Positions 7,891 through 62,875 of a stretch of DNA of 64,000 nucleotides are shown piece by piece. Source of the stretch: Chelativorans intermedius (GTDB taxonomy: Bacteria > Pseudomonadota > Alphaproteobacteria > Rhizobiales > Rhizobiaceae). The position numbers and the translations under genes were made by a program. Location: the NCBI RefSeq assembly GCF_025398255.1, contig NZ_JAODNW010000018.1, forward strand, positions 62,001 through 126,000. The letters run 5' to 3'. How positions within the stretch are numbered: the first letter of the stretch is position 1; every line of letters begins with the position of its first letter. Below the pieces are notes generated by a model. That model had not been told where the DNA came from. It ran no database searches and worked only from the letters and a program-made list of their open reading frames with translations.

Positions 7891-7891
7891 G

Positions 7892-29184: not shown

Positions 29185-29225
29185 CGTTTCCTCCCTTGAG
29201 CGTTTGCGTCGTCGTCCCCGCCGGC

Positions 29226-30035
29226 TCACGCAGGCAGGGAAGTCTCCTCTCGGGCCTGGCCGGGGCTGCTGGCCACGATCAGGCGCACGCCCGCCGCCTC
29301 CAGCATCTTCGCTTCCCGATCGGTCACGCCCTCGTCGGTAATCACCGTGGCGATGCGCTCCAGCCGGCACAGGATGAGGCTTGAGCGCTGGCGGAACTTG
29401 CTGGAATCGGCCAGCACCACCAGCTCCTCGGCCTGATTGATCAGCTTCTGCTCGGCCTGGATCAGCAGGGGATCGCCTTCCATCAGGCCGAGGGGGCCGA
29501 GACCGCGGGCGCCCATGAACATGCGCCGCGCGTAGAAATTGGCCGTCACGTCGTTGTCGAACGGCGAGAGCACGATGTTCTGCTCGCGATAGACAGTGCC
29601 GCCGGGCAGAACCACCGTGTTCTTCGAATGCTTCAGAAGGTGCTCGGCGATGACAAAGGAATTGGTGAGGATGGGCATCCGCCGGCTGGCAAGGAAATGC
29701 ACCATCTGGAAGGTGGTGGTGCCGCCATTGATGATGATCGGCTCGCCGTCGCTGCACAGTGCCACGGCCTCGCGCGCAATGGCCCGCTTCTTGTCAGCGT
29801 TGAGCGCCTCGTTGACCTTGAACGGCCTGCCGGCAAGCCCGATGAACTGCGGCGGTGTCATGGCCTCAGCCCCGCCGCGCACGCGCCTCAGCTTCTGCTG
29901 CATGTGCAGGGCGGCGATGTCACGCCGAATCGTGGCCTCCGAGGCGCCGGTCAGGTCCACCATTTCCTGCACGGTGACGACAGGCTTTTCCTGAACGGCT
30001 GACAGGATGATGCGATGGCGCTCTTTCTCGTGCAT
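29226..30035 (-). CDS. rhaR: DeoR family repressor of rhamnose genes
   Basis: 269 residues: an N-terminal DeoR helix-turn-helix (VTVQEMVDLTGASEATIRRD) and a C-terminal DeoR sugar-phosphate-sensing domain (INGGTTTFQMVHFLASRRM). In R. leguminosarum the DeoR-type RhaR represses the divergent rhamnose transcripts. Here it heads the leftward unit and faces rhaD across 185 bases that hold inverted repeats. Confidence 0.9.
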   Translation of the reverse strand: MHEKERHRIILSAVQEKPVVTVQEMVDLTGASEATIRRDIAALHMQQKLRRVRGGAEAMTPPQFIGLAGRPFKVNEALNADKKRAIAREAVALCSDGEPIIINGGTTTFQMVHFLASRRMPILTNSFVIAEHLLKHSKNTVVLPGGTVYREQNIVLSPFDNDVTANFYARRMFMGARGLGPLGLMEGDPLLIQAEQKLINQAEELVVLADSSKFRQRSSLILCRLERIATVITDEGVTDREAKMLEAAGVRLIVASSPGQAREETSLPA

Positions 30036-30078
30036 GGGTCCTCCCTCGATCGCGAATTAACGCATCGGAATCGCGCAG

Positions 30079-30151
30079 TGTCAATCATATTCCGTCAAAA
30101 TCTTTATTGTTGCAGCGCAATATGATCGAAATTGAGTGATATTGATTGACA
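30079..30151. promoter_or_regulatory. Putative RhaR operators and divergent promoters
   Basis: TGTCAATCATAT (30079-30090) is mirrored by ATATTGATTGACA (30139-30151), and CAATAT at 30118-30123 pairs with ATATTG at 30139-30144. TTGACA motifs lie inside the outer arms on each strand. The leftward one is followed after 18 bases by TTAATT, a credible -10. An AT-rich gap with operator arms overlapping -35 boxes fits repression of both rhaR and rhaD by RhaR. Confidence 0.55.
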
Positions 30152-30220
30152 GAGGGAGGGCCTTTTGCCACTTTTGAACCATGCCAGATGCACCCGGCGG
30201 TGCAGCGAGGGAGGACTTCC

Positions 30221-32323
30221 ATGCTTGAAACACGCGGTGGAACACGGCTCGCCGATCTTTGGGATGAGACGAGGGCCGCCACCATGAGCGAGCCGGAGCG
30301 CCTGCTTTATCGCTCCAACCTTCTGGGCTCGGACAAGCGCATCACAAATTATGGGGGCGGCAACACCTCGGCCAAAGTGACGCAGGCCGATCCGTTCACG
30401 GGTGAACCGGTGGAGGTCCTGTGGGTCAAGGGCTCGGGCGGCGATGTCGGAACCATCAAACTTGACGGCTTCGCCACGCTTTACATGGACAAGCTGCACG
30501 GGCTGAAGAAGCTTTATCGCGGCGTTGACCATGAGGACGAGATGGTGGGGTATCTGCCCCACTGCACTTTCAACCTCAATCCGCGTGCCGCCTCCATCGA
30601 CACGCCGCTTCATGCCTATGTTCCATACCGGCATGTTGACCATATGCACCCGGATGCGGTGATCGCCATTGCGGCGGCGCAAAACAGCAAGACGCTGACG
30701 GAGACGATCTATGGCGGCGAGATCGGCTGGCTGCCTTGGAAACGGCCAGGCTTCGAGCTCGGCCTCTGGTTGGAGGCGTTCTGCCGCGATAACCCGGACG
30801 CCAAGGGCGTGGTGCTGGCTGGTCATGGGCTCTTTACATGGGGCGACACGGCACGCGAATGCTACGAGACCACCATCCGTATCATCAACCGCGCCATCGC
30901 GTGGTTCGAGGAGGAGGCGGCGGACAAGCCTGCTTTTGGCGGTGCTGTGCGGCCCGTTCTGGGCCCTGAGGAGCGGCGCCGGGTGGCCGAACGGCTGATG
31001 CCGGCGATCCGCGGCCTGATTTCCGATGCGCAGCGCAAGGTCGGCCATTTCGACGACAGCGAAGCGGTGCTCGAGTTCACGGCCGGGCGGGATATGGAGA
31101 CGCTTGCAGCACTGGGCACGAGTTGCCCGGACCATTTTCTGCGCACCAAGCGAACGCCGCTCGTGGTCGATTTCGATCCGGCCCGGCCCGACCTCGACAG
31201 AACGCTCGGGAGCCTGCCGGCCGCCATCGCGGCATATCGCGAGGAGCACGCTGCCTATTACGAGCGGTGCAAGCGGCCTGACAGCCCGCCCATGCGCGAT
31301 CCCAATGCGGTGGTATATCTGGTGCCGGGCGTGGGAATGATTACCTTTGCCAAGGACAAGGCGACGGCCCGCGTTTCGGCCGAGTTCTATGTTAACGCGA
31401 TCAACGTGATGCGCGGGGCCTCCAGCGTCTCCAGCTATGTGGGCTTGGCCGAGCAGGAAGCGTTCGACATCGAGTACTGGGTGCTGGAGGAGGCGAAGCT
31501 TCAGCGCCTGCCAAGGCCCCGGCCGCTGGCCGGAAAGATTGCGCTGATCACCGGCGGAGCAGGGGGCATTGGCAAGGCCACGGCCGAGCGCCTTCTCCAG
31601 GATGGCGCCTGTGTCGTGCTGGCCGACATCGACGAAAAGGCGCTTGCCCTGGCGGAGGAGGAGTTGGCCGGTCGGTATACGGCCGACTGTGTGCGCCGCG
31701 TCAGACTGGACGTGACGGCGGAGGACGAGGCCGCCGCCGCCTTTGCCCATGCGGTACGCGAATATGGCGGGCTCGACATTTTGGTCTCAAATGCCGGCAT
31801 CTCCTCGGCAGCACCCGTGGACGAGACCGATCTTTCCACATGGAATCGCAACATGGATATTCTTTCCACCGGATATTTCCTGGTGGCGCGGGAGGCCTTC
31901 CGTCTGATGAAGCGTCAGGGCACTGGCGGCGAGATCGTCTTCGTTGCCTCAAAGAACGGTCTTGCGGCCTCGCCCAACGCCGCCGCCTATTGCACGGCCA
32001 AGGCTGCCGAGATCCATCTGGCCCGCTGCCTGGCGCTGGAAGGGGCGGAATTCGGCATCCGCGTGAACACGGTGAACCCGGACGCGGTGCTGCGCGGATC
32101 GCGCATCTGGTCGGGTGCCTGGCGCGAGCAGCGCGCCGCTGCCTACAACATGCGCCCGGACGAACTGGAGGAGCACTATCGCAAGCGCTCGCTTCTGAAG
32201 CTCAGCGTGTATCCCGAGGATGTGGCCGAGGCGATCTATTTCTTCGTCTCCGACATGTCGGCCAAGTCGACTGGAAACATTCTCAACGTCGATGCCGGCA
32301 ACGCGCAGAGTTTCACGCGCTAA
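30221..32323 (+). CDS. rhaD: Bifunctional rhamnulose-1-phosphate aldolase / L-lactaldehyde dehydrogenase
   Basis: 700 residues in two parts. Residues 1 to about 430 are a class II aldolase/adducin domain (ITNYGGGNTSAKV, YVPYRHVDHMHPDAVIA with clustered metal-binding His). Residues 440-700 are a short-chain dehydrogenase (ITGGAGGIGKATAERL, catalytic YCTAKAA). The fusion cleaves L-rhamnulose 1-phosphate to dihydroxyacetone phosphate and L-lactaldehyde and then oxidises or reduces the lactaldehyde. The ATG at 30221 follows AGGGAGGA; longer in-frame readings enter the operator region. It is followed 30 bases later by rhaI. Confidence 0.93.
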   Translation: MLETRGGTRLADLWDETRAATMSEPERLLYRSNLLGSDKRITNYGGGNTSAKVTQADPFTGEPVEVLWVKGSGGDVGTIKLDGFATLYMDKLHGLKKLYRGVDHEDEMVGYLPHCTFNLNPRAASIDTPLHAYVPYRHVDHMHPDAVIAIAAAQNSKTLTETIYGGEIGWLPWKRPGFELGLWLEAFCRDNPDAKGVVLAGHGLFTWGDTARECYETTIRIINRAIAWFEEEAADKPAFGGAVRPVLGPEERRRVAERLMPAIRGLISDAQRKVGHFDDSEAVLEFTAGRDMETLAALGTSCPDHFLRTKRTPLVVDFDPARPDLDRTLGSLPAAIAAYREEHAAYYERCKRPDSPPMRDPNAVVYLVPGVGMITFAKDKATARVSAEFYVNAINVMRGASSVSSYVGLAEQEAFDIEYWVLEEAKLQRLPRPRPLAGKIALITGGAGGIGKATAERLLQDGACVVLADIDEKALALAEEELAGRYTADCVRRVRLDVTAEDEAAAAFAHAVREYGGLDILVSNAGISSAAPVDETDLSTWNRNMDILSTGYFLVAREAFRLMKRQGTGGEIVFVASKNGLAASPNAAAYCTAKAAEIHLARCLALEGAEFGIRVNTVNPDAVLRGSRIWSGAWREQRAAAYNMRPDELEEHYRKRSLLKLSVYPEDVAEAIYFFVSDMSAKSTGNILNVDAGNAQSFTR

Positions 32324-32353
32324 AGCCGCTCACCGGAAAGCAGGGAGGAGGCC

Positions 32354-33646
32354 ATGAGCGAACAACCGATCGACACCGATCTCGTCGCGCGCGAGAATGC
32401 AGCCCGACAATCGGCACTCGAACGGGATTACGAGGCGCTCGGCGAACAGCTCGACCGCCGCGGCATCCCCATTGATGCCATCCGCGACAAGGTGGCTGCC
32501 TTCGCCGTTGCCATTCCCTCCTGGGGTGTAGGTACGGGCGGAACACGCTTTGCCCGTTTCCCCGGCCCTGGCGAGCCTCGGGACATCTTCGACAAGATCG
32601 AGGACTGCGCGGTGATCCACCAACTGACCCGCGCCACGCCAACCATTTCGCTCCACATTCCATGGGACAGGGCTGAACCGGCCCTGCTCAAGGAGGCAGC
32701 GGCGCGCCGTGGCCTGGCCTTCGATGCCATGAACTCCAACACCTTCCAGGACCACCCCGGCCAGCACCACTCCTACAAGTTCGGTTCGCTCTCGCACACA
32801 GACGCCGCCACGCGCGCCCAAGCGGTGGAGCATAATCTGGAATGCATCGAGATCGGCAGGGCCATAGGCTCCAAGGCGTTGACGGTGTGGATCGGCGATG
32901 GCTCCAACTTTCCGGGGCAGAGCGACTTTGCCCGCGCCTTCGAGCGCTATCTGGACTCGATGAAACAGATCTACGCGGCGCTGCCGGAAGACTGGCGTCT
33001 TTTCACCGAGCACAAGATATACGAGCCGGCCTTCTATTCCACCGTCGTGCAGGACTGGGGCACCAACTACCTGATCGCACGGGAACTGGGGGAGAAGGCT
33101 TTCTGCCTGGTCGATCTTGGCCACCACGCGCCGAATGTGAACATCGAGATGATCGTCTCGCGCCTGATCCAGTTCGGCAAGCTTGGTGGCTTCCACTTCA
33201 ACGATTCGAAATATGGCGACGACGATCTGGATGCCGGCGTCATCGACCCCTATCGGCTGTTCCTCATCTTCAACGAGCTGGTGGCGGCGGAGCGGCGGGC
33301 TGTTCCGGGCTTTGCGCCCGCCCACATGCTCGACCAGAGCCACAATGTCACCGATCCCATCGAGAGCCTGATGCTCTCGGCGGTGGAGGTGACACGCGCC
33401 TATGCCCAGGCGCTGCTGGTGGACCGCACGGCGCTTGACGCCTTTCAGGAAGAAAACGACGCGTTGATGGCGAGCGAGACTCTGAAGACTGCCTTCCGCA
33501 CCGATGTCGGGCCGGTTCTCGCCATGGCGCGGCTGCGGTCGGGCGGCGCCGTAGATCCGGTAGCCGCGTATCGCGCCAGCGGCTATCGCCGGAAGGTGGC
33601 GGACGAGCGTCCGGCAGCTCGCGGCACGGGCGGCGGCATCGTATAG
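32354..33646 (+). CDS. rhaI: L-rhamnose isomerase (RhaI type)
   Basis: 430 residues, a TIM-barrel sugar isomerase of the alternative rhamnose-catabolism class found in rhizobia rather than E. coli RhaA. Metal-site strands are visible: TEHKIYEPAFYSTV, DLGHHAPNVNIEM and FHFNDSKYGDDDLDAG. It converts L-rhamnose to L-rhamnulose, feeding RhaK and RhaD. GGGAGG precedes the start. Its last 64 bases overlap, tail to tail, the CAP-domain gene on the other strand. Confidence 0.93.
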   Translation: MSEQPIDTDLVARENAARQSALERDYEALGEQLDRRGIPIDAIRDKVAAFAVAIPSWGVGTGGTRFARFPGPGEPRDIFDKIEDCAVIHQLTRATPTISLHIPWDRAEPALLKEAAARRGLAFDAMNSNTFQDHPGQHHSYKFGSLSHTDAATRAQAVEHNLECIEIGRAIGSKALTVWIGDGSNFPGQSDFARAFERYLDSMKQIYAALPEDWRLFTEHKIYEPAFYSTVVQDWGTNYLIARELGEKAFCLVDLGHHAPNVNIEMIVSRLIQFGKLGGFHFNDSKYGDDDLDAGVIDPYRLFLIFNELVAAERRAVPGFAPAHMLDQSHNVTDPIESLMLSAVEVTRAYAQALLVDRTALDAFQEENDALMASETLKTAFRTDVGPVLAMARLRSGGAVDPVAAYRASGYRRKVADERPAARGTGGGIV

Positions 33647-34224: not shown

Positions 34225-35052
34225 TCAGCAGGCGGTGTTGAAGCGTTCCACGCAGGTGGCCAGCACCTCGTCACCGGGGCGCTTCCACCAGTCGTCGCGC
34301 GAGAAGATCTCCACTTCCTGCGGACCGTGGAAGCCTGCCTCCTCGATCATGCGACGAATGGCGGGCAGGTCGATCACCCCGTCGCCCATCATGCCGCGGT
34401 CCAGAAGAAGGTCCCTGGTGGGCACCAGCCAGTCGCAGATATGGTGAGCGAGAATGGCGCCCATCTGCCCGGCGCGGGCGATCTGAGTGGCAAGCTCGGG
34501 ATCCCACCAGACGTGGTAGACGTCGATGGCCACGCCGATTCCCTCGCCCAGTTCCACGCACAGATCGAGCGCCTGGGAAAGCGTGTTCACGCAGGCCCGG
34601 TCGGCGGCATACATGGGATGCAGCGGTTCGATGGCCAGGGGCATTCCAACGGAGCGGGCATGCGGCAGGATGGCGGCCAGACCCTCGGCCACCTGGCGGC
34701 GGGCCTCCGGCATGTCCTTCGAGGAACCGGGAAGTCCTCCCACCACCAGCACCAGGCAGTCGGCGTTGAGAGCCTTGGCCTCGTCGATGGCCCGCCTGTT
34801 GTCGTCGATATTGGCCTGCCTGCCGGCTGCGTCCTGCGCAGGAAACATGCCGCCGCGGCACAGCCCCGTCACCCTCAGCCCGTTTGCCTCGACGATGCGT
34901 GCAGCCTCCTTGAGCCCGATCGCTTCCACCTGGTCGCGCCAGGGGGCAATGGCCGTGATCCCGTGGCGCAGGCAACCCTCCACCGCCTCGGCGAAGCCCC
35001 AGCTTCCGCGCGTGGTGGCGAGATTGATCGACAGGCGGCCTTCAAGGCTCAT
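34225..35052 (-). CDS. TIM-barrel sugar (phosphate) isomerase/epimerase
   Basis: 275 residues of the AP-endonuclease-2 / xylose isomerase-like superfamily: LSINLATTRG, AIAPWRDQVEAIG, LAIEPLHPMYAADRACVNT, IDVYHVWWDPEL and PQEVEIFSRDDWW supply metal-binding Glu, Asp and His. Such proteins isomerise or epimerise free keto sugars or act as dehydratases. It is the fourth gene of the leftward unit that starts at 38814, 15 bases downstream of the enolase-like gene. The exact reaction is unknown. Confidence 0.8.
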   Translation of the reverse strand: MSLEGRLSINLATTRGSWGFAEAVEGCLRHGITAIAPWRDQVEAIGLKEAARIVEANGLRVTGLCRGGMFPAQDAAGRQANIDDNRRAIDEAKALNADCLVLVVGGLPGSSKDMPEARRQVAEGLAAILPHARSVGMPLAIEPLHPMYAADRACVNTLSQALDLCVELGEGIGVAIDVYHVWWDPELATQIARAGQMGAILAHHICDWLVPTRDLLLDRGMMGDGVIDLPAIRRMIEEAGFHGPQEVEIFSRDDWWKRPGDEVLATCVERFNTAC

Positions 35053-35067
35053 GGCTTGGTTCCTTCC

Positions 35068-36483
35068 TCAGAACAGGGGCTGCATGGCGGACCAGTCGGG
35101 TTCGACCGCCGAGCCGAGGCCGGGCGCGGCTGCGATGGAGGCAAGCGACAGGCTGCCCTCGCGGATCGCAAGGCGTGCCCGCCCGCCGACGTTTCGATAG
35201 AGATCGCCATGGGCGGCGAGATAGGCGCGCATCTCCTCGGCCGGCGCGCCGGCCATGCCGTCGACGAAATGGTGGCCGTTGCGTTCGACATGTTCGGCGC
35301 CGATCAAGCCAGCCAGCACGAGGTCCTGCTGGATGGCGATGCCGGCCTGGGTGGTCAGGTCTTCCGCCGACATAAAGCAGTGAGCTTCACCGGCCTGCCC
35401 GTTCCACCGTGCCACGCGCGCTCGGTTGAGAAGCGCGCGGTAGAAGCCCTTGCAGGATTTCGAGGAGATGCCGGTGTAGCCAAGGCGCCTTGCGACGACG
35501 AAGGCTTCCATATCGGCGTCGGACTCGTCGATTTCCACGGCAATGCGGGCGGCAAGGCGGGTGACGGGGCGGGCAAGCGCCCGGGCGCGCGCGATGGGCT
35601 GTTCCAGAAACAGGATGCGCTCGCGCAGGCGGGCAAGAGCCGGCTCGGCCTCGATGGCATCGAGCAGTTCCAGCACATGCGCCTCGTCCTCATACTGCTC
35701 GTTGCCATCGAGCGTCGCCCGGTAGTCGGGCTGAAGTCGGTCGAGCACGGCGGCGATGCGGGTGAGTCGTGCGACATCCTTCTTCACGTCGCCGGCAATC
35801 TTCAGTTTGAATAAGCGGTGCCCATAGGCGGCGATCGCATCCTCCAGCGTTTCCGGCAGGCCGTCGTCGAGGCGGGAGGCGCTTTCATCCGCGCTCAGCG
35901 CATCGCCGAGACCCACCGTGTGCCGCACGGCAAGACTGGCGGGCAGCGTCAGGCCGGCGAGGAAGCTGTCAAGGTCGAAGCCTGCCAGATCCGGCGCCGT
36001 GGTGGTGTCGATGCCAAGCCTGTTCCCGTTCACGAGCCTTTGCGCCGGAACCCCCTCCAGCCGCGCGAGCGCGTCGATGACCGCGCGGTCGACGAGGGCG
36101 AGGCCGAAGGAGGCGATCAGCCCGTTGAGGCCCGCCTGCGCGCAGGCGGTGCGATGAGCGGGTTCGACGCCCGCATGGAGCGCGAAGGCGCTGCCGGAGC
36201 CGGCAGCCATCATGGCCTGCGCGGCCATCCGCAGGGCGGTCCTGAGCTGTTGGGTGTTCTCTTCGGGCGAAAGGCCGGGGTCCTTGTCGAACCATTTCGG
36301 CATCATCATTTCCGCCGACCAGCCGATGGCCTCGCGGCCCGTCTCGTCGGCGATCCGCACGCGCAGGAACGCCTGCGCGGCCGCCTTCACCTCGGCGGCA
36401 CCGAAGCGGAAGGCGAAGCGGAACGGCACCTGCCGCTCGAAAGCGGCGGCCTCGACGATGCTTATACGGGGGAGCGATGCCAT
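35068..36483 (-). CDS. Enolase-superfamily (mandelate racemase-like) protein of unknown specificity
   Basis: 471 residues, longer than the usual 370-430. The C-terminal barrel shows K226-x-K228 (LFKLKIAG), metal ligands Asp259 (TLDGNEQYE), Glu294 (FLEQPI) and Asp319/Glu320 (VEIDESD), then Lys342 or Lys345. Enolase-superfamily enzymes abstract a proton next to a carboxylate, giving acid-sugar dehydratases, racemases or cycloisomerases. The N-terminal capping domain (1 to about 150) has an unusual GWSAEMMMPKWFDK segment. Context between an aldolase-like and an isomerase-like gene favours a sugar-acid dehydratase, as inference. It does not resemble L-fuconate dehydratase closely. Confidence 0.72.
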   Translation of the reverse strand: MASLPRISIVEAAAFERQVPFRFAFRFGAAEVKAAAQAFLRVRIADETGREAIGWSAEMMMPKWFDKDPGLSPEENTQQLRTALRMAAQAMMAAGSGSAFALHAGVEPAHRTACAQAGLNGLIASFGLALVDRAVIDALARLEGVPAQRLVNGNRLGIDTTTAPDLAGFDLDSFLAGLTLPASLAVRHTVGLGDALSADESASRLDDGLPETLEDAIAAYGHRLFKLKIAGDVKKDVARLTRIAAVLDRLQPDYRATLDGNEQYEDEAHVLELLDAIEAEPALARLRERILFLEQPIARARALARPVTRLAARIAVEIDESDADMEAFVVARRLGYTGISSKSCKGFYRALLNRARVARWNGQAGEAHCFMSAEDLTTQAGIAIQQDLVLAGLIGAEHVERNGHHFVDGMAGAPAEEMRAYLAAHGDLYRNVGGRARLAIREGSLSLASIAAAPGLGSAVEPDWSAMQPLF

Positions 36484-36486
36484 CGC

Positions 36487-37653
36487 TCAGGACTGGGGCA
36501 CGCCGCGCACGGCCATCACCTGGCGCATGCGCGCTTCCGCAAGCTCCGGGTCGATGAGCACGCGCGCCTCGTCCGCCAGCCGGAAGAGGTCCGCCAGATG
36601 CAGGGTGGAGCGCGCCGATTCCTGACCGCCGATCATGGTGAAGTGATCCTGCAACCCGTTCAGATAGGCGAGGAAGACGACGCCGGTCTTGTAGAAGCGT
36701 GTCGGCGCCTTGAAGATGTGGCGCGACAGCGGCACCGTCGGGGCGAGCAGCTCGAAGAACCTTTTTTCATCGCCTGCACCAAGGGCGGCAAGCGCGGCGG
36801 ACGCCGCAGGCGCGATGGCATCGAAGATGCCGAGCAGGGCGTCGGAATGGCCTTCGCTGTCTCCGGCAATAAGCTCGGCATAGTTGAAGTCGTCGCCCGT
36901 ATACATGCGCACGCCTTTGGCCAGGCGGCGGCGCATGACGATTTCCTTCTCCTTGGAGAGGAGCGAGATCTTGATGCCGTCCACCTTGTCGGCATGGGCG
37001 GCGATGATGTCGAGTGCCACCTCCATGGCGTCCATGTGGTCGGGCCGGCCCCAATATCCCTCAAGCGCGGGGTCGAACATTTCGCCGAGCCAATGGATGA
37101 TCACCGGCTCCTTCACGCCGGAGAGAATGCGGTCATAGACGCGCGCATAGTCGTCGGGACCCTTCGCGGCTGCCGCCAGTGCCCGGCTCGCCATCAGGAT
37201 GATGCGTCCGCCATGCGCCTCGATGGCCTCGATCTGCTCCTCATAGGCCGCGATGATATGCTCGATGGTCACGTCGGGGCCGGGGGCCAGGTGATCGGTG
37301 CCGGCACCGCAGGCGATCAGTGCGCCGGGGCGGCCTTTTGCTTCCCGCAGGGCCCGGGCGATCAGCTCGCGGGCCTGCGTCCAGCCCAGGCCCATGCCGC
37401 GCTGTGCCGTGTCCATGGCTTCTGCCACGCCAAGCCCTAGGTCCCACAGATGGTGGCGGAAGGCCATCGTCCTGTCCCAGTCGATGGCCGGGGCGAGCCA
37501 GGGGTCGTTGTCGGCCAGCGTGTCGGCCACCACATGCGCGGCGGCGTAGGCGATGCGATTGAAGGAAGCGGCATCGCGCTTGCCGGCCTCGATCGGCCGG
37601 TTCTTCACCGTGTAGGTGGAGACGGAACGGTCGGCATTGGGCAGGTTGAGCAT
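36487..37653 (-). CDS. DUF993 / dihydrodipicolinate synthase-family protein
   Basis: 388 residues of the DUF993 group, a TIM-barrel family annotated near dihydrodipicolinate synthase (class I aldolases). Visible segments include ALIACGAGTDHL, YDRILSGVKEPVIIHWLGEM, VDGIKISLLSKEKE (candidate Schiff-base lysines) and VRMYTGDDFNYAEL. If it behaves like its relatives it should form or cleave a carbon-carbon bond next to a 2-keto acid or ketose. It is the second gene of the leftward unit, ten bases after the dehydrogenase. Biochemical function in this family is, to my knowledge, not established. Confidence 0.75.
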   Translation of the reverse strand: MLNLPNADRSVSTYTVKNRPIEAGKRDAASFNRIAYAAAHVVADTLADNDPWLAPAIDWDRTMAFRHHLWDLGLGVAEAMDTAQRGMGLGWTQARELIARALREAKGRPGALIACGAGTDHLAPGPDVTIEHIIAAYEEQIEAIEAHGGRIILMASRALAAAAKGPDDYARVYDRILSGVKEPVIIHWLGEMFDPALEGYWGRPDHMDAMEVALDIIAAHADKVDGIKISLLSKEKEIVMRRRLAKGVRMYTGDDFNYAELIAGDSEGHSDALLGIFDAIAPAASAALAALGAGDEKRFFELLAPTVPLSRHIFKAPTRFYKTGVVFLAYLNGLQDHFTMIGGQESARSTLHLADLFRLADEARVLIDPELAEARMRQVMAVRGVPQS

Positions 37654-37662
37654 CGGTCACTC

Positions 37663-38814
37663 CTAGAACTGCAGGTTTGGGACGTCGAGCCATCGCCGCT
37701 CGGCCCAGGACTTGAGCCCCAGTTCGGCAAGCTGCACGCCCTTGGCACCTTCCTCAAGACCGTAGCTCCAGGGCGCATCCTCGGCCACATGGCGCAGGAA
37801 CTCCTCCCACTGCACCTTGAAGCCGTTGTCGACAGGCCAGTTGTCCGGCACTTCCTCCCAATCGTCGAAGAAGTTCATGGTCTGCGGCTGGTCGGGATTC
37901 CACACGGGCTTGGGCGTGTTGACGCGGTGCTGTGTCCAGCATCTGTGGAGCCCGGCTACGGCGGAGCCCAGCGTGCCGTCCACCTGGAAGGTGACGAGAT
38001 CGTCGCGGCGCACCCGCACCGCCCAGCTCGAATTGATGTGGGCGACGATGCCGCCCTCCAGCTCAAAGGTGGCGTAGGCCGCGTCATCCGCATCCGCCTT
38101 GTAGGGCTTGCCCTGCTCGTCCACGCGCTCGGGAATGTGCGTGGCACCGAGGCAGGAGACGGCCTTGACGGGTGCGAAGGTGTTGTCGAGCACGTAGCGC
38201 CAGTGGCACAGCATGTCGATGATGATGCCGCCGCCATCGGCCTTGCGATAGTTCCACGAAGGGCGCTGCGCCTTCTGCCAGTCGCCCTCGAACACCCAGT
38301 AGCCGAATTCGCCGCGCACCGAGAGAATGCGGCCGAAGAAGCCGGAGTCGCGCAGCATTCGCAGCTTCATGAGGCCCGGCAGGAACAGCTTGTCCTGCAC
38401 CACGCCATGCTTGCGGCCGGAGGCGCGCGCTTTCCGGGCAATGTCGACGGCCACCGAAAGGTCGTCCGAGGTCGGCTTTTCGCAGTAGACGTGCTTTCCG
38501 GCAGCCAGTGCCTTTTCCAGAAGACCGGCGCGGATCTTGGTGGCGCCGGCGTCGAAGAAGATCTCGTCATCCGGGTTGGCAAGCGCGGCGTCGAGATCGT
38601 CGGTAAAGCGCGCCACATTGTGGCGTTTGGCGATTGCCTCCACCTTCTCCAGACTGCGGCCGACGAGAATCGGGTCGACCGTCAAGCGGTCGCCGTCGGA
38701 AAGAACTATGCCCCCCTGGTCGCGGATGGCCAAGACCGACCTGACGAGATGCTGGTTGTAGCCCATCCGCCCGGTAATCCCGTGCATGATGATGCCGATG
38801 CGCCGCTGGGCCAT
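37663..38814 (-). CDS. Gfo/Idh/MocA family oxidoreductase
   Basis: 383 residues: an N-terminal Rossmann fold (RIGIIMHGITGRMGYNQH) with the family's AGKHVYCEKP motif, then the C-terminal alpha/beta domain (GGGIIIDMLCHWRYV supplies the catalytic His region). It oxidises or reduces a hydroxyl of a sugar, inositol or sugar acid using NAD(P). It is the first gene of a four-enzyme leftward unit and faces the TetR-type operator at 38841-38856. The nucleotide loop differs slightly from the usual GxGxxG. Confidence 0.87.
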   Translation of the reverse strand: MAQRRIGIIMHGITGRMGYNQHLVRSVLAIRDQGGIVLSDGDRLTVDPILVGRSLEKVEAIAKRHNVARFTDDLDAALANPDDEIFFDAGATKIRAGLLEKALAAGKHVYCEKPTSDDLSVAVDIARKARASGRKHGVVQDKLFLPGLMKLRMLRDSGFFGRILSVRGEFGYWVFEGDWQKAQRPSWNYRKADGGGIIIDMLCHWRYVLDNTFAPVKAVSCLGATHIPERVDEQGKPYKADADDAAYATFELEGGIVAHINSSWAVRVRRDDLVTFQVDGTLGSAVAGLHRCWTQHRVNTPKPVWNPDQPQTMNFFDDWEEVPDNWPVDNGFKVQWEEFLRHVAEDAPWSYGLEEGAKGVQLAELGLKSWAERRWLDVPNLQF

Positions 38815-38840
38815 AAATCCTCCCTGGAAGCTTCATATTT

Positions 38841-38856
38841 GTAACTACCCAGTTAC
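38841..38856. promoter_or_regulatory. TetR-type operator, copy 1
   Basis: GTAACTACCCAGTTAC has perfect 6-base arms around a 4-base centre, a shape common for TetR-family operators. It lies 27 bases upstream of the Gfo/Idh start (38814, minus) and between it and the divergent TIM-barrel gene (38981, plus). The 14-base stretch CCAGTTACTTACTT beginning inside it is repeated at the second site near 39842. Two TetR genes lie at the end of the rightward unit. Confidence 0.65.
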
Positions 38857-38980
38857 TTACTTGCCGGCACGGAATGTGTCAAGCAGGAGTGCTGCGCCGC
38901 CGTCGACCGGGTTGACAGGAGATTGAAAGCGGCGCGCAGTTGTGCGTGTGAGCCATCGAGGAAGACGGGGAGGCAAGGCG

Positions 38981-39841
38981 ATGCGGATCGTGCTGTGCAA
39001 CGAGGTGCTGCGGCCGATGCCGCTTGCCGCGCAGTGTGCCTTTGCCAGGCAGGCGGGGTATGATGGGCTGGAGATTGCACCCTTTACGCTGGCCGACGAT
39101 CCAACCCGCCTGACGGCGGACGAGATCACGGAGTTGCGGCGCGCCATCGCCGCACAGGGTCTTGCCGTTGCCAGCCTGCACTGGCTGACCATGGCGCCTG
39201 AGGGCCTGGACCTGACCTCACTGGATGCCGAGATTGGCAGCAGGACGCGGCAGGCGCTGTTGCGGCTGGTGGACCTTGCTGCCGGGCTTGGTGCCGGTGT
39301 CATCGTGCACGGCTCGCCGGCGCAGCGGCGCTTGGGCGCACAAGCAAAGGACCAGCGGGCTGTCGCCATGGCGCATATCGAGGCAGCGGCGCGGCGCGCT
39401 GGCGAACACGGCATTGCCTATTGTCTGGAAGCCATCAATCGCCGGGAGTGCAACTTTCTGAACACGCTGGCCGAGGCAGAGGCGATGATTGCCGAGATCG
39501 GTGCGCCGGCGCTGCGGCTGATGCTGGACGTGTGCCACGCCGCGCAGGAGGAGCAGGATAGCCTCGCTGTCCTTGCTGCTCGATATTGCCGGCAGGGCAA
39601 GCTTGCCCATGTACAGCTCAACGCAGCAAACCGGCGCGGGCCGGGGCAGGGCGATCATGCGGGCGGACCGGACGCCATTGCGCCCTTGCTGCGCGCGCTG
39701 ACCGAAAGCGGCTATGGGGGCGATCTGGCGGTGGAACCTTTCGATTATGTGCCGGACGGGCCAGCCTGTGCAGCGCGCGCCATCGGCTATGTGCGCGGGG
39801 TTCTGGACGGGCTTGAGAAAGATGCAGTCGATAAGAACTAA
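38981..39841 (+). CDS. TIM-barrel sugar (phosphate) isomerase/epimerase
   Basis: 286 residues of the xylose isomerase-like superfamily (RIVLCNEVLRPMPLAAQ, GYDGLEIAPFTL, YCLEAINRRECNFLNT, LMLDVCHAA, LAVEPFDYVPDG), with Glu/Asp/His metal ligands on successive strands. It resembles hydroxypyruvate isomerase and keto-sugar epimerase relatives. The ATG at 38981 has GGGGAGG upstream. It is divergent from the Gfo/Idh unit and precedes the tctC-type gene, whose promoter overlaps its last bases. Confidence 0.8.
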   Translation: MRIVLCNEVLRPMPLAAQCAFARQAGYDGLEIAPFTLADDPTRLTADEITELRRAIAAQGLAVASLHWLTMAPEGLDLTSLDAEIGSRTRQALLRLVDLAAGLGAGVIVHGSPAQRRLGAQAKDQRAVAMAHIEAAARRAGEHGIAYCLEAINRRECNFLNTLAEAEAMIAEIGAPALRLMLDVCHAAQEEQDSLAVLAARYCRQGKLAHVQLNAANRRGPGQGDHAGGPDAIAPLLRALTESGYGGDLAVEPFDYVPDGPACAARAIGYVRGVLDGLEKDAVDKN

Positions 39842-39850
39842 CCAGTTACT
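39835..39850. promoter_or_regulatory. TetR-type operator, copy 2, at the tctCBA promoter
   Basis: GAACTAACCAGTTACT shares CCAGTTACTTACTT with copy 1 and has AACT/AGTT arms around a 4-base centre. It overlaps the stop of the upstream gene. A TTGACA follows at 39858-39863, so a bound repressor would sit just upstream of or over a -35 box driving the transporter genes. Conservation of the right half is stronger than the left. Confidence 0.6.
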
Positions 39851-39950
39851 TACTTCTTGACAGCCTGCCGCGCTGTCTTCACAGTTCCTTTCCACGCCGG
39901 GACCGGAGAGAGGGCCATGGCGTAACAAGGACAATTCAAGGGAGGAAAAT

Positions 39951-40979
39951 ATGGGTTCCTTGACCAAGGCCGCGTTTGGCGCGGCTGCATCCGCATTGGC
40001 GCTGTCCGCCACATCGGCGCTTGCCCAGGAATGGGAGCCGGAGCGGCCGATCAACATCATCGTGCCGTGGGGTGCGGGCGGCTCCACAGACCAAGTGACG
40101 CGTGTTACCGCACCGATCATCTCCGAGGCGCTCGGGCAGACGGTGGTGGTGGTCAATCAGCCGGGCGCATCTGGCGCCGTGGGCACGCAGGAAGTGCTGA
40201 ACGCGCCGAAAGACGGCTATACCTGGACGGCCAATGCCATTGCCAACAACGCCACCTACACGGTGACGGGAATGATCCCGGACACCAGCATCGACGACTG
40301 GCACATCTATCTTTCGGTCGCCAACGTTCCTGTCGTCTCGGTGCCTGCCGACAGCCCGTTTCAGGATTTCGGTGCGTTGCTGCAGGCCTTCAAGGAGCGC
40401 GGCAGCGAGATCACGGTGGCGACGGCCGGCGTGACCTCCTCGGGCGGCATGGCGATTGCCGGTCTGGGGACCGAGGGCGATTTCGACTACCGCATGGTGA
40501 CCTATGACGGCGGCGGGCCGGCCGCCATCGCCACGGCTGCCGGCGAGGCGATGGTTACCACCCAGCTCGCCGTCGAACAGGCCGAGCTGATTCGTGGCGG
40601 CCGCCTGCGCCCGCTTGCCGTCTTGAGCGACGAGGCGCTGACCATCGAAGGCGTGGATCCCATCCCGCCCATCACCGAATGGCTGCCCGACTTTCCCATC
40701 GCGCCGGACTATTTCGGCATCTTCATTCCCCGCGGTGTGCCTGATGAGGTGATCGCGACGATGGACCGCATCTGGGAAGAGAAGGTGATGAATTCCGAGG
40801 CGCTGAAGGAATATGCGCAAACCAATGGCGCCGTCTTTGCCCCTTCCTACGGCGAAGAGGCCCGCGCCCGTGCCATGCCCGTGGTGATCGAGGAGGCCTG
40901 TGCTGCCGAAGAGCGCGGCCTTGAGGTCAACGACCCCTCCACCATTGGCATTGACTGCGAGACGAAAAGCGAGATGTAG
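39951..40979 (+). CDS. tctC: Tripartite tricarboxylate transporter substrate-binding protein (second system)
   Basis: 342 residues with a Sec signal (GSLTKAAFGAAASALALSAT, cut after ALA). It has the Bug/TctC fold opening INIIVPWGAGGSTDQVTR, then VVVVNQPGASGAVGT. The glycine-rich loop contacts the ligand carboxylate in this family, so the cargo is probably an acid. It is preceded by GGGAGG and by a TetR-type operator about 100 bases upstream. It belongs with the catabolic genes at 34-40 kb. Confidence 0.92.
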   Translation: MGSLTKAAFGAAASALALSATSALAQEWEPERPINIIVPWGAGGSTDQVTRVTAPIISEALGQTVVVVNQPGASGAVGTQEVLNAPKDGYTWTANAIANNATYTVTGMIPDTSIDDWHIYLSVANVPVVSVPADSPFQDFGALLQAFKERGSEITVATAGVTSSGGMAIAGLGTEGDFDYRMVTYDGGGPAAIATAAGEAMVTTQLAVEQAELIRGGRLRPLAVLSDEALTIEGVDPIPPITEWLPDFPIAPDYFGIFIPRGVPDEVIATMDRIWEEKVMNSEALKEYAQTNGAVFAPSYGEEARARAMPVVIEEACAAEERGLEVNDPSTIGIDCETKSEM

Positions 40980-41050
40980 CCCGCGCAGGGGCAAGCGCCT
41001 GGCCGGCACTTGCGACGGGTGCCGGCCGGTGCCACGTGTGGGAGGCAAGC

Positions 41051-41572
41051 ATGGACGACCCTCGGGTGCAACGCCGCATGAACCGCGCCGATCTCGTGAC
41101 CGGCTGCGTGCTTGCCGGTCTGGGACTTGCGATCGTCTACGTGTCCTGGACCATGCCGCGGCTCGAAGTGCGCGGCATTCACCCCGCCACGGTGCCCGGT
41201 CTTGTTCCGGGTCTTCTGGGCCTCATCCTCGCCTTCTGCGGGGCAGCCCTTGCCATCAAGGCCTTTCGCGAAGGGCGGGGGGAAGGCGGTTGGGTCGATT
41301 TCTTTTCGCTCCTGCGCTCCGCCGAGATGGGGCGCCTTGCGGTCGTCGGGGGCTTGGCGCTCGTCTATGCGCTTCTCCTGGTGGGCCTGCTGCCGTTCTG
41401 GCTTGCCACGGCGCTTTTCGTTTTCGTCTTCATCGTCGTTTTCGAGACCTGGCTTTCGCCCAGCCCAAAACCGCTCCCGCGCTCCCTCCTCTGGGCGGGG
41501 GTTCAGGCGGTGCTGGTGGGCATCGTCGTCACGCTCGTGTTTCAAAACGGCTTTCTCGTCCGTCTGCCCTAG
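41051..41572 (+). CDS. tctB: Tripartite tricarboxylate transporter small membrane subunit (second system)
   Basis: 173 residues with four predicted helices: residues about 13-30, 45-66, 95-110 and 115-140. This is the TctB type. The ATG at 41051 is preceded by GGAGG; an in-frame GTG at 41036 is less well placed. It lies 71 bases after tctC and 18 bases before tctA. Confidence 0.85.
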   Translation: MDDPRVQRRMNRADLVTGCVLAGLGLAIVYVSWTMPRLEVRGIHPATVPGLVPGLLGLILAFCGAALAIKAFREGRGEGGWVDFFSLLRSAEMGRLAVVGGLALVYALLLVGLLPFWLATALFVFVFIVVFETWLSPSPKPLPRSLLWAGVQAVLVGIVVTLVFQNGFLVRLP

Positions 41573-41590
41573 CCCGACAGGTTCAGTCCA

Positions 41591-43114
41591 ATGCTTGAAG
41601 GTCTCTTGCTGCTCGGCCAAGGCATCGCCCATTTTCTCACCTGGGGAGCCCTCTTCAATCTGGCCTGGGCAAGCCTGCTTGGCATCGTCATCGGCGCCCT
41701 GCCGGGGCTGACGGCCACCATGGGCGTGGCGCTGCTTGTCACGCTCACCTACAAGATGCCGCCCGACCAGGCGATTTTGTGCCTGATGGCGCTCTATGTG
41801 GGCGCCATTTATGGCGGCAGCCGCTCGGCCATCCTGCTTGCCATCCCGGGCACACCGGCAAGCGCTGCCACCGCGCTGGACGGCTTCCCCCTGGCCCGCG
41901 CCGGCAAGGCGGGGCTGGCGATGGGGATCGCCACCACCTCCTCCGCGCTTGGCACGCTCGTGGGCATTTTCTTCCTGGCGCTGATCGCGCCGTGGCTGGC
42001 CGAGTTTGCGCTGCGTTTCGGCTCCTATGAGTTCTTCTGGCTGGCGCTCTTCGGTGTGCTCATTTCCGGGCGGCTGACGGCGATCGACAATCCGCTCAAG
42101 GGCTACATCGCGGGCATTCTGGGCCTACTTGCGGCCATGATCGGCATGGAGGGCCTGCACGCCTATCAGCGCTTCACCTTTGGTATCGGCGCGCTGGGTG
42201 GCGGGGTGGATCTGATTCCGGCCATGGTGGGTGCGTTCGGCTTTGCCGAGATCCTGAGCGTCATGAAGCAACGCTTCACCGCCGAGATGGCGACCAGCGA
42301 CGACCGGGTGCTGCCGCGGCTTGCCGACATTACGCGCTACTGGCGCACCACCATCCGTTCCGGGGTGCTGGGCACCATTGCCGGCATCATTCCTGGTGTG
42401 GGCGAAGACATCGGCGCCTGGGCTTCCTATGCTGCGGCGCGCCGCAAGAGCAAGGAGGCGGACCGTTTCGGCAAGGGCTCCATCGAGGGGCTGGTGGCGG
42501 CCGAGACCGGCAACTCGGCGGTGATCCCGGGGGCCATGATTCCCACGCTCACACTAGCCCTGCCGGGCTCGGCAGCGGCGGCGGTGCTGATTGCTGCAAT
42601 GTTCATCCATGGAATCCGGCCCGGCCCGCTCTTGATGACCGAAAACCCGCAGTTTCTGTATCAGATCGTCGGCATCCTGTTTCTAACCACGATCGCCATC
42701 ACCATCTATGGCCTGTCGCTGACCAAGCTTCTGGTGCGCGTTCTCCTCGTCCCGCGCGAGAAGCTGATGCCGGTGGTCTATGTGTTGTGCGTGGTGGGCT
42801 CCTTCGCCATCACGCAGCGCATGTTCGACGTCTATGTGATGGTCGCCTTCGGTTTGATCGGCTTCGTGCTGCGCGAGATGCGCTATCCAATGGCGCCCCT
42901 GGTGCTCGGCATCGTTCTGGGGGAGCTTCTCGACGTCAATCTGCGCCGCGGCCTGCTGTTGTCCGACGGCGATGTAACCCCTTTCTTCACACGCCCGATC
43001 AGCGCGGTGCTCGTCACCGTCATCGCGGTGACGATCCTCATGAGCATGCCCATGGTGAGCAGACGTGTCACGCAGATCTTCAAGCGTCTTGACCCGCAGG
43101 GCCGTACCGGCTGA
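41591..43114 (+). CDS. tctA: Tripartite tricarboxylate transporter large membrane subunit (second system)
   Basis: 507 residues, about twelve helices, with the TctA loop GALPGLTATMGVALLVTLT near residue 37 and GIIPGVGEDIGAWASYAA near residue 270. It differs clearly from the first TctA in the window (ATMG in place of GPSNG), which suggests a different substrate. Its 3' end overlaps the start of the tetR gene by up to 50 bases, tying the regulator to the transporter unit. Confidence 0.94.
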   Translation: MLEGLLLLGQGIAHFLTWGALFNLAWASLLGIVIGALPGLTATMGVALLVTLTYKMPPDQAILCLMALYVGAIYGGSRSAILLAIPGTPASAATALDGFPLARAGKAGLAMGIATTSSALGTLVGIFFLALIAPWLAEFALRFGSYEFFWLALFGVLISGRLTAIDNPLKGYIAGILGLLAAMIGMEGLHAYQRFTFGIGALGGGVDLIPAMVGAFGFAEILSVMKQRFTAEMATSDDRVLPRLADITRYWRTTIRSGVLGTIAGIIPGVGEDIGAWASYAAARRKSKEADRFGKGSIEGLVAAETGNSAVIPGAMIPTLTLALPGSAAAAVLIAAMFIHGIRPGPLLMTENPQFLYQIVGILFLTTIAITIYGLSLTKLLVRVLLVPREKLMPVVYVLCVVGSFAITQRMFDVYVMVAFGLIGFVLREMRYPMAPLVLGIVLGELLDVNLRRGLLLSDGDVTPFFTRPISAVLVTVIAVTILMSMPMVSRRVTQIFKRLDPQGRTG

Positions 43115-43751
43115 GGCGCGGCTGGCGGCACGCGCCCGCGATCCGGCCCGCACGCGGGCGGCGATTCTTGCTGCAGCGCGCGCCGAGTTCTCCGAACACG
43201 GACTCGAAGGGGCGCGCATCGACGCCATTGCCCGCCGGGCAGCCACCAACAAGCGCATGCTCTACCACTATTTCGGCAACAAGGAGGGGCTCTATTGCGC
43301 CGTGCTCGCCGAGGCCTATCGCGAGATCCGCCAGGGCGAGCGGGCGCTCCAGCTTGACCAGTATGACCCGGTGGAAGCGATGGCGCGGCTGGTGCGTTTC
43401 ACCTTCCGGCATTTTCTGGAGTGTCCCTGGTTCATTGCGCTGTTGACCAACGAGAACCTGATGCGCGCGCGTTATCTGCGCACCTTGCCGGAAATGCACG
43501 GGCTGCATTCGCCGCTTGTCGATCAGATCAGAAAGCTCATCCGCCGTGGCGCGCAAAGCGGCATCTTCCGCGACGATGTCGATCCGGTGCAGCTCTACAT
43601 CTCGATCGCCGCCCTAGGCTATTTCTACGTTTCGAACAACGCCACACTCTCGGTGATCTTCGATACCGACCTTTCAAGCAGCAGGCATGTCGCCGCGCGC
43701 GAGGCCCATGCGGTGGAGATGGTGCTCGACCATCTGCGGCTCACGGCCTGA
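43065..43751 (+). CDS. TetR family regulator, paralogue A
   Basis: 228 residues. The TetR helix-turn-helix reads ARIDAIARRAATNKRMLYHY with FGNKEGLYCAV following; the ligand-binding half is of the TetR_C_41 or RutR-like length. The start is GTG at 43065 or TTG at 43089, both inside tctA. As the last gene of the operated unit it is the best candidate for the protein that binds the two GTAACT/AGTTAC operators. Its 3' end overlaps paralogue B by 11 bases, tail to tail. Confidence 0.88.
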   Translation: MSRRSSSVLTRRAVPAEARLAARARDPARTRAAILAAARAEFSEHGLEGARIDAIARRAATNKRMLYHYFGNKEGLYCAVLAEAYREIRQGERALQLDQYDPVEAMARLVRFTFRHFLECPWFIALLTNENLMRARYLRTLPEMHGLHSPLVDQIRKLIRRGAQSGIFRDDVDPVQLYISIAALGYFYVSNNATLSVIFDTDLSSSRHVAAREAHAVEMVLDHLRLTA

Positions 43752-46687: not shown

Positions 46688-46730
46688 GGCGTGAGAGTAT
46701 GTGCGGGAGGAGCAAGGGAGGAGACCGCGC

Positions 46731-47570
46731 ATGATCGTCGACACTCATCTGCATGTCATCGACCAGGCAGCGCTGACCTATCCGTGGCTTTCTGGCGTAC
46801 CGGCGCTCAATCGCACCTTTTCCTACGAGGAATATGCACGCGACGCGAGGCGCGTGGGCATCGAGGCGGCCTTGCACATGGAAGTCGACGTGGCCGAGGC
46901 GCAGATGGAAACCGAGACGGCCTATGTGGCGGGCCTTGCCGGGCGCCGCAACAGCCTCATCGTCGGCGCCATTGCCGCCTGCCGGCCGGAAGGCGAGGGC
47001 TTTGCCGCCTATCTGGAGCGCCAGCGGGATAACCCGCTCGTCAAGGGGTTTCGCCGCGTGCTGCATGTGATGCCCGACGAGCTTTCGGAGGGCCAGCGCT
47101 TTCGCGCAAACATCAAGCGGCTTGCCGGCACCCGCTTCACCTTCGATCTGTGCGTGCTGCCGCATCAGCTTCCGAAGGCCATGGCGCTTGCCGATCTGGC
47201 GCCGGATGTGCAGTTCATTCTCGACCATTGCGGTGTGCCCGACATCAAGGGCGAAGTCTTTGAACCATGGCGAAGCCACATGGCGGAGATTGCCAGAAGG
47301 CCGAATGTTGCCGCCAAGATTTCGGGCGTCGTCGCCTACGCTGATCCTGAAAGCTGGACCTTGGAAAGCTTGCGCCCGTGGGTGGAGCACACGGTTGAAT
47401 GTTTCGGCTGGGACCGGGTGGTGTGGGGCAGCGATTGGCCTGTGTGCACGCTGGGCGGCGGGTTGTCCACCTGGGTGGCGGCCACTCGGGCCCTTTTCGG
47501 AAGCTGCTCCGAGGCCGAACGGGCCAAGCTTTTCAGCGGGAACGCAAGAAAGATGTGGGCCCTCGGCTAG
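46731..47570 (+). CDS. Amidohydrolase-family sugar lactonase (L-fuconolactonase-like)
   Basis: 279 residues of the Amidohydro_2 family: DTHLHVIDQAALTYPWL at the N-terminus (metal His pair), FILDHCGVPDIKGEV in the middle and VVWGSDWPVCTLGGG near the C-terminus (catalytic Asp). This arrangement is typical of L-fucono- and L-rhamnono-lactonases that open the aldonolactone formed by a sugar dehydrogenase. The ATG at 46731 follows GGGAGGAG. It lies 43 bases after the regulator remnant and matches the pathway of the divergent SDR. Confidence 0.83.
   Translation: MIVDTHLHVIDQAALTYPWLSGVPALNRTFSYEEYARDARRVGIEAALHMEVDVAEAQMETETAYVAGLAGRRNSLIVGAIAACRPEGEGFAAYLERQRDNPLVKGFRRVLHVMPDELSEGQRFRANIKRLAGTRFTFDLCVLPHQLPKAMALADLAPDVQFILDHCGVPDIKGEVFEPWRSHMAEIARRPNVAAKISGVVAYADPESWTLESLRPWVEHTVECFGWDRVVWGSDWPVCTLGGGLSTWVAATRALFGSCSEAERAKLFSGNARKMWALG

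Positions 47571-60670: not shown

Positions 60671-62875
<2,205 letters not shown>

Follow-up and report, generated by a model that had tools for sequence, protein, structure and literature searches.

A conserved DUF993 gene cluster in Chelativorans intermedius constitutes a catabolic regulon, probably under TetR control

We analyzed a 64,000-nucleotide stretch of the Chelativorans intermedius genome (contig NZ_JAODNW010000018.1 of assembly GCF_025398255.1, forward-strand positions 62,001 to 126,000), referred to below as the window, and focused on a cluster of nine genes at window positions 34225–43751 that includes a member of the DUF993 family. As a first-pass annotation of the sequence had described, a leftward and a rightward unit of named families face one another here; all nine open reading frames were found at their coordinates, and each scored above the Pfam cut-off of its own family. 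Read leftward from position 38814, the first unit comprises gfo, DUF993, eno and iso1, and the rightward unit comprises iso2, tctC, tctB, tctA and tetR. These genes and two operator-like sites are arranged as follows.

34225..35052, minus strand: iso1, a xylose-isomerase-like TIM barrel (Pfam AP_endonuc_2, 137 bits)
35068..36483, minus strand: eno, a divergent enolase-superfamily protein of 471 amino acids (MR_MLE_C, 36.9 bits; cut-off 29.4)
36487..37653, minus strand: DUF993 protein (PF06187, 622.4 bits over residues 2–385; cut-off 24)
37663..38814, minus strand: gfo, a Gfo/Idh/MocA dehydrogenase (GFO_IDH_MocA, 29.7 bits)
38841..38856: operator-like palindrome GTAACTACCCAGTTAC, in the divergent gfo/iso2 gap, 26 bases before gfo
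38978..39841, plus strand: iso2, a second xylose-isomerase-like TIM barrel (AP_endonuc_2, 118.1 bits)
39834..39849: second operator-like site AGAACTAACCAGTTAC, overlapping the end of iso2, 101 bases before tctC
39951..40979, plus strand: tctC, the binding protein of a tripartite tricarboxylate transporter (TctC, 81.4 bits)
41036..41572, plus strand: tctB, its small membrane subunit (TctB, 45.5 bits)
41591..43114, plus strand: tctA, its large membrane subunit (TctA, 462.9 bits)
43065..43751, plus strand: tetR, a TetR-family regulator (TetR_N, 56.7 bits; TetR_C_29, 145.1 bits)

The gaps in the leftward unit are 9, 3 and 15 bases, short as the annotation had it, although not exactly the 4–15 bases that it gave. 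The open reading frame of iso2 is listed from 38942 and its start may instead be 38978; tetR as listed overlaps tctA by 50 bases. TctC, TctB and TctA occur together, each above its cut-off, which identifies a tripartite tricarboxylate transporter, and tctC matched TctC/Bug proteins in the PDB (best E 2e-25). We rejected the idea of a compositional island, as G+C was 0.647–0.664 in three 4-kb windows over the cluster versus 0.632–0.668 across the window.

To place the cluster among its relatives, species-representative genomes were scanned with the DUF993 protein. This gave at least 592 confirmed stretches, of which the best 80 were taken as loci (1.56 Mb), with a relative defined as a protein of at least 35% identity over at least 40% of the query. 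The nearest of these best 80 are two Chelativorans loci (87% identity). Relatives of iso1 lay within ∼10 kb of DUF993 in 77 loci and those of gfo in 74, followed by tetR (68 loci), eno (37), tctC (16), tctB and tctA (15 each) and iso2 (10). The loci are related to one another, so these counts are not independent, and several of the misses fall at contig ends: of the 62 loci that span 20 kb or more, 61 have gfo and all 62 have iso1. The core of the cluster is gfo-DUF993-iso1, to which eno, iso2 and tctCBA are accessory; all six of the long loci that have iso2 also have eno. The co-conserved catabolic gene set with its own regulator that had been proposed from the sequence is thus borne out.

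Co-occurrence was then assessed in 289 genomes of the class, the genome of C. intermedius included, with a threshold of E ≤1e-30 for the eno profile. DUF993 was found in 25 genomes (∼9%) and eno in 21, and 17 genomes had both where 1.8 were expected (Fisher p 4.9e-18, or 4.5e-17 without the own genome, both uncorrected for kinship). The two genes lay within 10 kb on one contig in 11 of the 17, and two of the other six (G087 and G200) have eno on contigs shorter than 8 kb. DUF993 was also present in 24 of 299 genomes drawn from the phylum. The first-pass annotation had set a test beforehand, namely whether the genes fail to be conserved together in other genomes; it was run, and both the joint occurrence of DUF993 and eno and the retention of the core across the 80 loci came out in favor of conservation. 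We rejected chance neighbors in view of the strength of the co-occurrence together with the conservation. Taken together, the cluster is a real, conserved catabolic regulon that very probably serves to degrade one sugar-like compound, and its control by TetR is probable.

Two near-identical palindromes had been placed at the two promoters. Both sites exist and the first does lie in the divergent gap, but the second is at the end of iso2 rather than at the start of the rightward unit. The 6-base arms of GTAACTACCCAGTTAC are perfect, AGAACTAACCAGTTAC has two mismatches in one arm, and TTAC continues both sites. With up to three mismatches allowed, a search for AACTANCCAGTTACTTAC in the own genome (4.18 Mb) returned the two cluster sites as perfect matches and one site with three mismatches on another contig, and its reversed control returned 1 per strand. 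In the related locus L003 iso2 lies between the two sites, as in this cluster; in L002, where the search found no iso2, tctC and gfo enclose the two sites, so the order tctC-site-site-gfo occurs without iso2 too.

Across the 80 loci, GTAAC-N6-GTTAC was present in 53 exact copies distributed over 43 loci. Among the controls, the 59 other orderings of the GTAAC letters had a mean of 0.85 copies (maximum 8), 319 other half-sites of equal G+C had a mean of 0.93 (maximum 20), and the same half-site with spacers of 4, 5, 7 or 8 gave 0 copies. Several G+C-rich half-sites had counts comparable to or above that of the palindrome, as is expected in such genomes. Position was more telling: 48 of the 53 copies lay near the start of a cluster gene (taking the longest open reading frame), from 109 bases inside it to 291 bases upstream, with 30 at gfo, and when one mismatch was allowed 39 of 74 gfo upstream regions carried the palindrome, compared with 0 or 1 for four controls. 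We also scanned 37 chosen genomes in full, with the reversed sequence as control, and the palindrome was present in 20 of the 25 with DUF993 versus 2 of the 12 without. From this co-occurrence and position, the TetR protein is the likely reader of the palindromes. A separate observation concerns genome G287, where 28 places carry GTAACATGAGGGTTAC or its complement. Many of these are ∼20 bases away from the start of a contig, so the sequence probably belongs to a repeated element unrelated to the operator.

We next considered the enzymes, using alignments of the loci sequences with identical ones merged. The DUF993 protein has one related solved structure, 4dnh (E 1.4e-203), which bears the name "Uncharacterized protein" and which we take to be SMc04132 of Sinorhizobium meliloti. 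Lysine 228, in a GIKIS motif, was kept in at least 98% of 95 aligned sequences and is a candidate catalytic lysine. The protein had been described as a relative of dihydrodipicolinate synthase (DHDPS); this relation originates in public product names and lacks a profile match to DHDPS-family proteins, and the protein gave no match to PF00701 at E 0.001. DUF993 relatives also occur in two other settings. On a Streptomyces plasmid (L088:8001-9191), a DUF993 gene of 43% identity adjoins SDR, FAD monooxygenase and type I polyketide synthase genes, a context that hints at biosynthetic use, and a relative of 44.5% identity lies at 7149–8258 of phage record MT835659.1, labelled Bacteriophage sp. and from human feces.

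The gfo protein is close to solved structure 3oqb (E 3.6e-182), which bears a generic name, and K113 of its EKP motif, D200 and H204 were kept in at least 98% of 89 aligned sequences. N- and C-domain models above cut-off, combined with the EKP lysine and the D/H motif of Gfo/Idh/MocA proteins, place it in that family. The iso1 protein is close to 3ju2 (SMc04130 according to its record) and 3qc0, which likewise have generic names (PDB sequence search, E 5.6e-142), and iso2 is nearest to ketose 3-epimerases (L-ribulose 3-epimerase 3vyl, E 2.1e-14). Against the models of 5-keto-L-gluconate epimerase IolO and D-psicose 3-epimerase iso2 scored 81.5 and 76.2 bits, below the cut-off of 300. At least 98% of the aligned sequences kept E142, D177, H204 and E246 of iso1 (94 sequences) and E151, D184, H211 and E253 of iso2 (22 sequences); these four positions are the metal ligands of the xylose-isomerase-like fold.

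The enolase-like protein had been read as an enzyme that dehydrates a sugar acid. Its lysines, K226-x-K228, K342 and K345, speak otherwise: together with D259, E294 and D319/E320 they were invariant in 28 rows and kept in at least 98% of 56 aligned sequences. At the level of sequence, this pattern indicates that eno is of the muconate-cycloisomerase type (two-lysine, MLE subgroup). Enzymes of this type carry out epimerizations, cycloisomerizations or eliminations; dehydratases of sugar acids fall into other subgroups of the superfamily. Lysines of MLE type therefore make sugar-acid dehydration not the natural reading. The protein shares with the MLE subgroup the KxK and further lysine motif and the metal-ligand positions; it differs in its length of 471 amino acids and in a very weak profile similarity. 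Dipeptide epimerases and muconate cycloisomerases came out on top when the eno profile was compared with solved structures (best E 3e-05, a weak match), and the score against muconate cycloisomerase TIGR02534 was 28.1 bits, below the cut-off of 334.95. An eno relative (36%) was also seen on a haloarchaeal plasmid (L095), among heparinase II/III, acetylxylan esterase, aminotransferase, GNAT and Gfo/Idh genes.

The gene contexts of the core differ among bacteria. In rhizobia it lies beside a CUT1 sugar ABC importer and further Gfo/Idh genes, and in other loci beside an NMT1/Tau-type ABC importer, often with a second DHDPS-family gene. The attempt to read the substrate from the transporter type fails, since the same core accompanies TctCBA, CUT1 or NMT1-type importers, and the substrate need not be a carboxylate, the ligand class of TctC proteins. 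Reading it from curated families fails as well, since none of the nine proteins reached an NCBIfam cut-off. The eno gene in some cases accompanies iso2, another Gfo/Idh gene, an NAD-epimerase-family protein, a GNAT protein and tctCBA. One stretch of the actinobacterium Glaciihabitans (L096) holds the run gfo-DUF993-iso-glycerate kinase together with genes for a relative of eno (34%), a CUT1 importer, a 2-hydroxyacid dehydrogenase, Gfo/Idh and TIM-barrel proteins and DUF2264 (presumably GH154). Glycerate kinase lies near DUF993 also in L085, L090, L122, L158, L186 and L187; the earlier statement that no kinase is present is true of the nine genes and does not extend to these loci. Its presence beside DUF993 elsewhere hints at a C3 product.

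In several loci the place of gfo beside DUF993-iso1 is taken by an SDR gene, mostly with acyl-CoA dehydrogenase, and in one Paraburkholderia record (L084) by a gene for a shikimate-dehydrogenase-like protein. Such interchangeable dehydrogenases suggest that DUF993 and iso1 work on the ketone that any one of them produces, and that glycerate may be the form in which a C3 unit leaves. The loci with SDR and acyl-CoA dehydrogenase genes (L085, L089, L092, L186 and L187) make up a second DUF993-iso1 class, and most of them add ETF, CoA transferase, enoyl-CoA hydratase or glycerate kinase genes. They share with the present cluster the DUF993-iso1 pair and, in L085 and its kindred L089 and L092, the exact palindrome (L186 and L187 lie outside the scan), whereas their dehydrogenases are different, no Gfo/Idh or eno gene is annotated in the stretches shown, and DUF993 is ∼54–56% identical.

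The closest counterpart in a studied organism is SMc04129–SMc04140 of S. meliloti, represented among the loci by strain Ak57 (L082), whose genes were matched to SMc numbers by order, presumably correctly. As in C. intermedius, tetR, gfo, DUF993, eno (60%) and iso1 form one unit, a palindrome precedes gfo, and the structure of SMc04130 has been solved (3ju2); a CUT1 sugar ABC importer and three extra Gfo/Idh genes replace tctCBA and iso2. In the accessible part of one study, SMc04132, 04133, 04135, 04138 and 04139 were down by 1.07–3.65 log2 units in phbC phaR versus phbC in TY medium and were not detected in low P (PMC12542648, Table 2). These protein changes indicate that the S. meliloti counterpart is expressed; as far as that part of the study goes, they do not reveal its role. 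SMc04134 is named solely within a computed network in the accessible text of PMC11387232. In the literature searched, those members of SMc04129–04140 that were found occur only in this protein table and this network, with no pathway assignment, and no paper on DUF993 or PF06187 was found, most subscription papers being outside the reach of the search. Within that literature, the view that no characterized pathway has this gene set holds.

Starting from the gene set, its conservation and co-occurrence, the conserved palindrome and the conserved residues, all of which were observed or computed, we give an even chance to a substrate-inducible catabolic regulon for one polyhydroxylated compound, probably a sugar acid, a uronide or a cyclitol-like acid. 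In its absence, TetR on both sites would silence the two divergent units. The compound would be imported by TctCBA, and the Gfo/Idh enzyme would oxidize a hydroxyl to a ketone. The metal-dependent iso1 and iso2 and the two-lysine eno may then move protons beside the ketone, so as to epimerize, isomerize, or open or close a ring by β-elimination. DUF993 would break the carbon skeleton, possibly via a Schiff base on K228, and a C3 fragment would exit via hydroxypyruvate or tartronate semialdehyde to glycerate. Here TetR binding, the order of steps, the aldolase role of DUF993, the C3 product and the class of substrate are the parts that we infer.

A number of observations weigh against this proposal. 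The substrate class itself is hypothetical. In four of 10 long loci with tctC and tctA (L013, L017, L024 and L046) eno is not found nearby, so the importer also occurs apart from the enolase-like gene. Eno occurs without DUF993 in four of its 21 genomes (G066, G071, G148 and G280), one of which (G148, locus L114) retains gfo and iso1 beside eno, and eight of the 25 DUF993 genomes lack eno. An aldolase role gains nothing from hhalign, which gave no match between DUF993 and 18 DHDPS-family proteins of neighboring loci, and glycerate kinase is absent from the nine cluster genes. A search of the own genome at E 1e-5, made without a positive control, gave no match for the second DHDPS-family and NAD-epimerase-like proteins of other clusters, so C. 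intermedius seems to have a smaller version of the set. As for the operator, whole-genome counts of the palindrome were often no higher than those of the reversed control (2 versus 12 in G281, 1 versus 1 in G000), which leaves position as the informative evidence. The exact palindrome was missing in 37 of the 80 loci, including all 14 titled Bradyrhizobium, and in L052, L056, L066 and L076, with Bradyrhizobium-type gene order, it was missing even at one mismatch. Where DUF993 and eno form separate modules, the site was found at both in G093, at the DUF993 module only in G182 and G044, and at neither in G015.

Three other explanations were weighed. The levoglucosan route LgdA-LgdB1-LgdB2-LgdC begins with a Gfo/Idh protein, LgdA, and a similar 3-oxidative route for a glycoside or uronide, in which the Gfo/Idh enzyme oxidizes C3, one TIM barrel eliminates the leaving group, the second hydrates and the freed sugar is processed, is unlikely here. 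In L096 an eno relative and a DUF2264 gene stand with gfo-DUF993-iso-glycerate kinase, which favors such a route if DUF2264 is indeed GH154, and the rhizobial core lies beside CUT1 sugar importers and extra Gfo/Idh genes. GH154 proteins are argued to be uronate dehydratases in the accessible parts of PMC12269599 and, in repetition, PMC13260240, and the levoglucosan pathway likewise pairs a dehydrogenase with sugar-isomerase-type proteins, annotated as sugar phosphate isomerases, in the accessible part of PMC7676230. The text on that pathway, so far as accessible, has no DUF993 or enolase-type enzyme, however, and these two would be left unexplained; gfo scored 48.1 bits against the levoglucosan dehydrogenase model NF052479, whose cut-off is 650, and the nine genes include no glycosidase.

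Breakdown of a carbocyclic polyol acid of quinate- or cyclitol-like type, with a ring hydroxyl oxidized and the ring opened by DUF993 and iso1, seems to us quite improbable. The shikimate/quinate-dehydrogenase-like gene that precedes DUF993 in Paraburkholderia L084 and the DUF993-iso1 pairs with acyl-CoA dehydrogenase, ETF, CoA transferase or enoyl-CoA hydratase genes fit it, as does the best NCBIfam match of gfo, inositol 2-dehydrogenase TIGR04380, though far under the cut-off (55.4 of 355 bits). Those contexts nevertheless involve DUF993 relatives only 54–63% identical, possibly with another substrate, and the shikimate-type neighbor appears in a single record. We regard as very improbable a known uronate or aldarate route run by divergent enzymes (uronate dehydrogenase, lactone cycloisomerase and keto-deoxy-aldarate dehydratase). 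Related clusters elsewhere do hold an NAD-epimerase-family protein, an MLE-type enzyme, a TctCBA importer and a DHDPS-family protein whose best NCBIfam match is of 5-dehydro-4-deoxyglucarate dehydratase type (24.9 bits), but all such matches are far under curated cut-offs, a comparison of the NAD-epimerase-like protein with solved structures gave no uronate dehydrogenase at E 0.01, and the own-genome search described above, with its lack of a positive control, found neither that protein nor the second DHDPS-family protein.

Beyond the inducible regulon for one polyhydroxylated compound, we tentatively raise a broader and rather doubtful possibility. DUF993 and its TIM-barrel partner may be a new carbon-carbon-cleaving pair at the center of a TetR-controlled regulon common to many proteobacteria and some actinobacteria (where no palindrome was found). 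They would then serve a general route for polyhydroxylated rings and sugar acids that is fed by different dehydrogenases and importers, with a new two-lysine enolase-type reaction handling one branch.

Two further observations concern the surroundings of the cluster in the window. An L-rhamnose gene group lies beside it at 28183–33646, with the binding protein RhaS (481 bits; cut-off 342), the aldolase/dehydrogenase RhaD (1204; 634), a rhizobial L-rhamnose isomerase (843; 647) and a DeoR-type regulator under the named cut-offs. The protein encoded at 46701–47570 has L-fucono-1,5-lactonase as its best match, far under the cut-off (106 of 400 bits), and could act on a sugar lactone; by tblastn, though, none of the 80 DUF993 loci has a match to it.

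The regulon is built from known enzyme superfamilies, with parts that are ordinary in kind, around a family without assigned function. DUF993 is a curated family that has kept this status despite a solved structure, and it is present in 25 of the 289 genomes sampled from the class. Through its conserved gene set and operator the anonymous domain becomes a testable pathway, for which the importer, the repressor and its predicted site, the solved relatives of three enzymes and the counterpart in the laboratory rhizobium S. meliloti are available as handles. Solving the pathway would give names to several protein families together and reveal a food source of soil and root bacteria.

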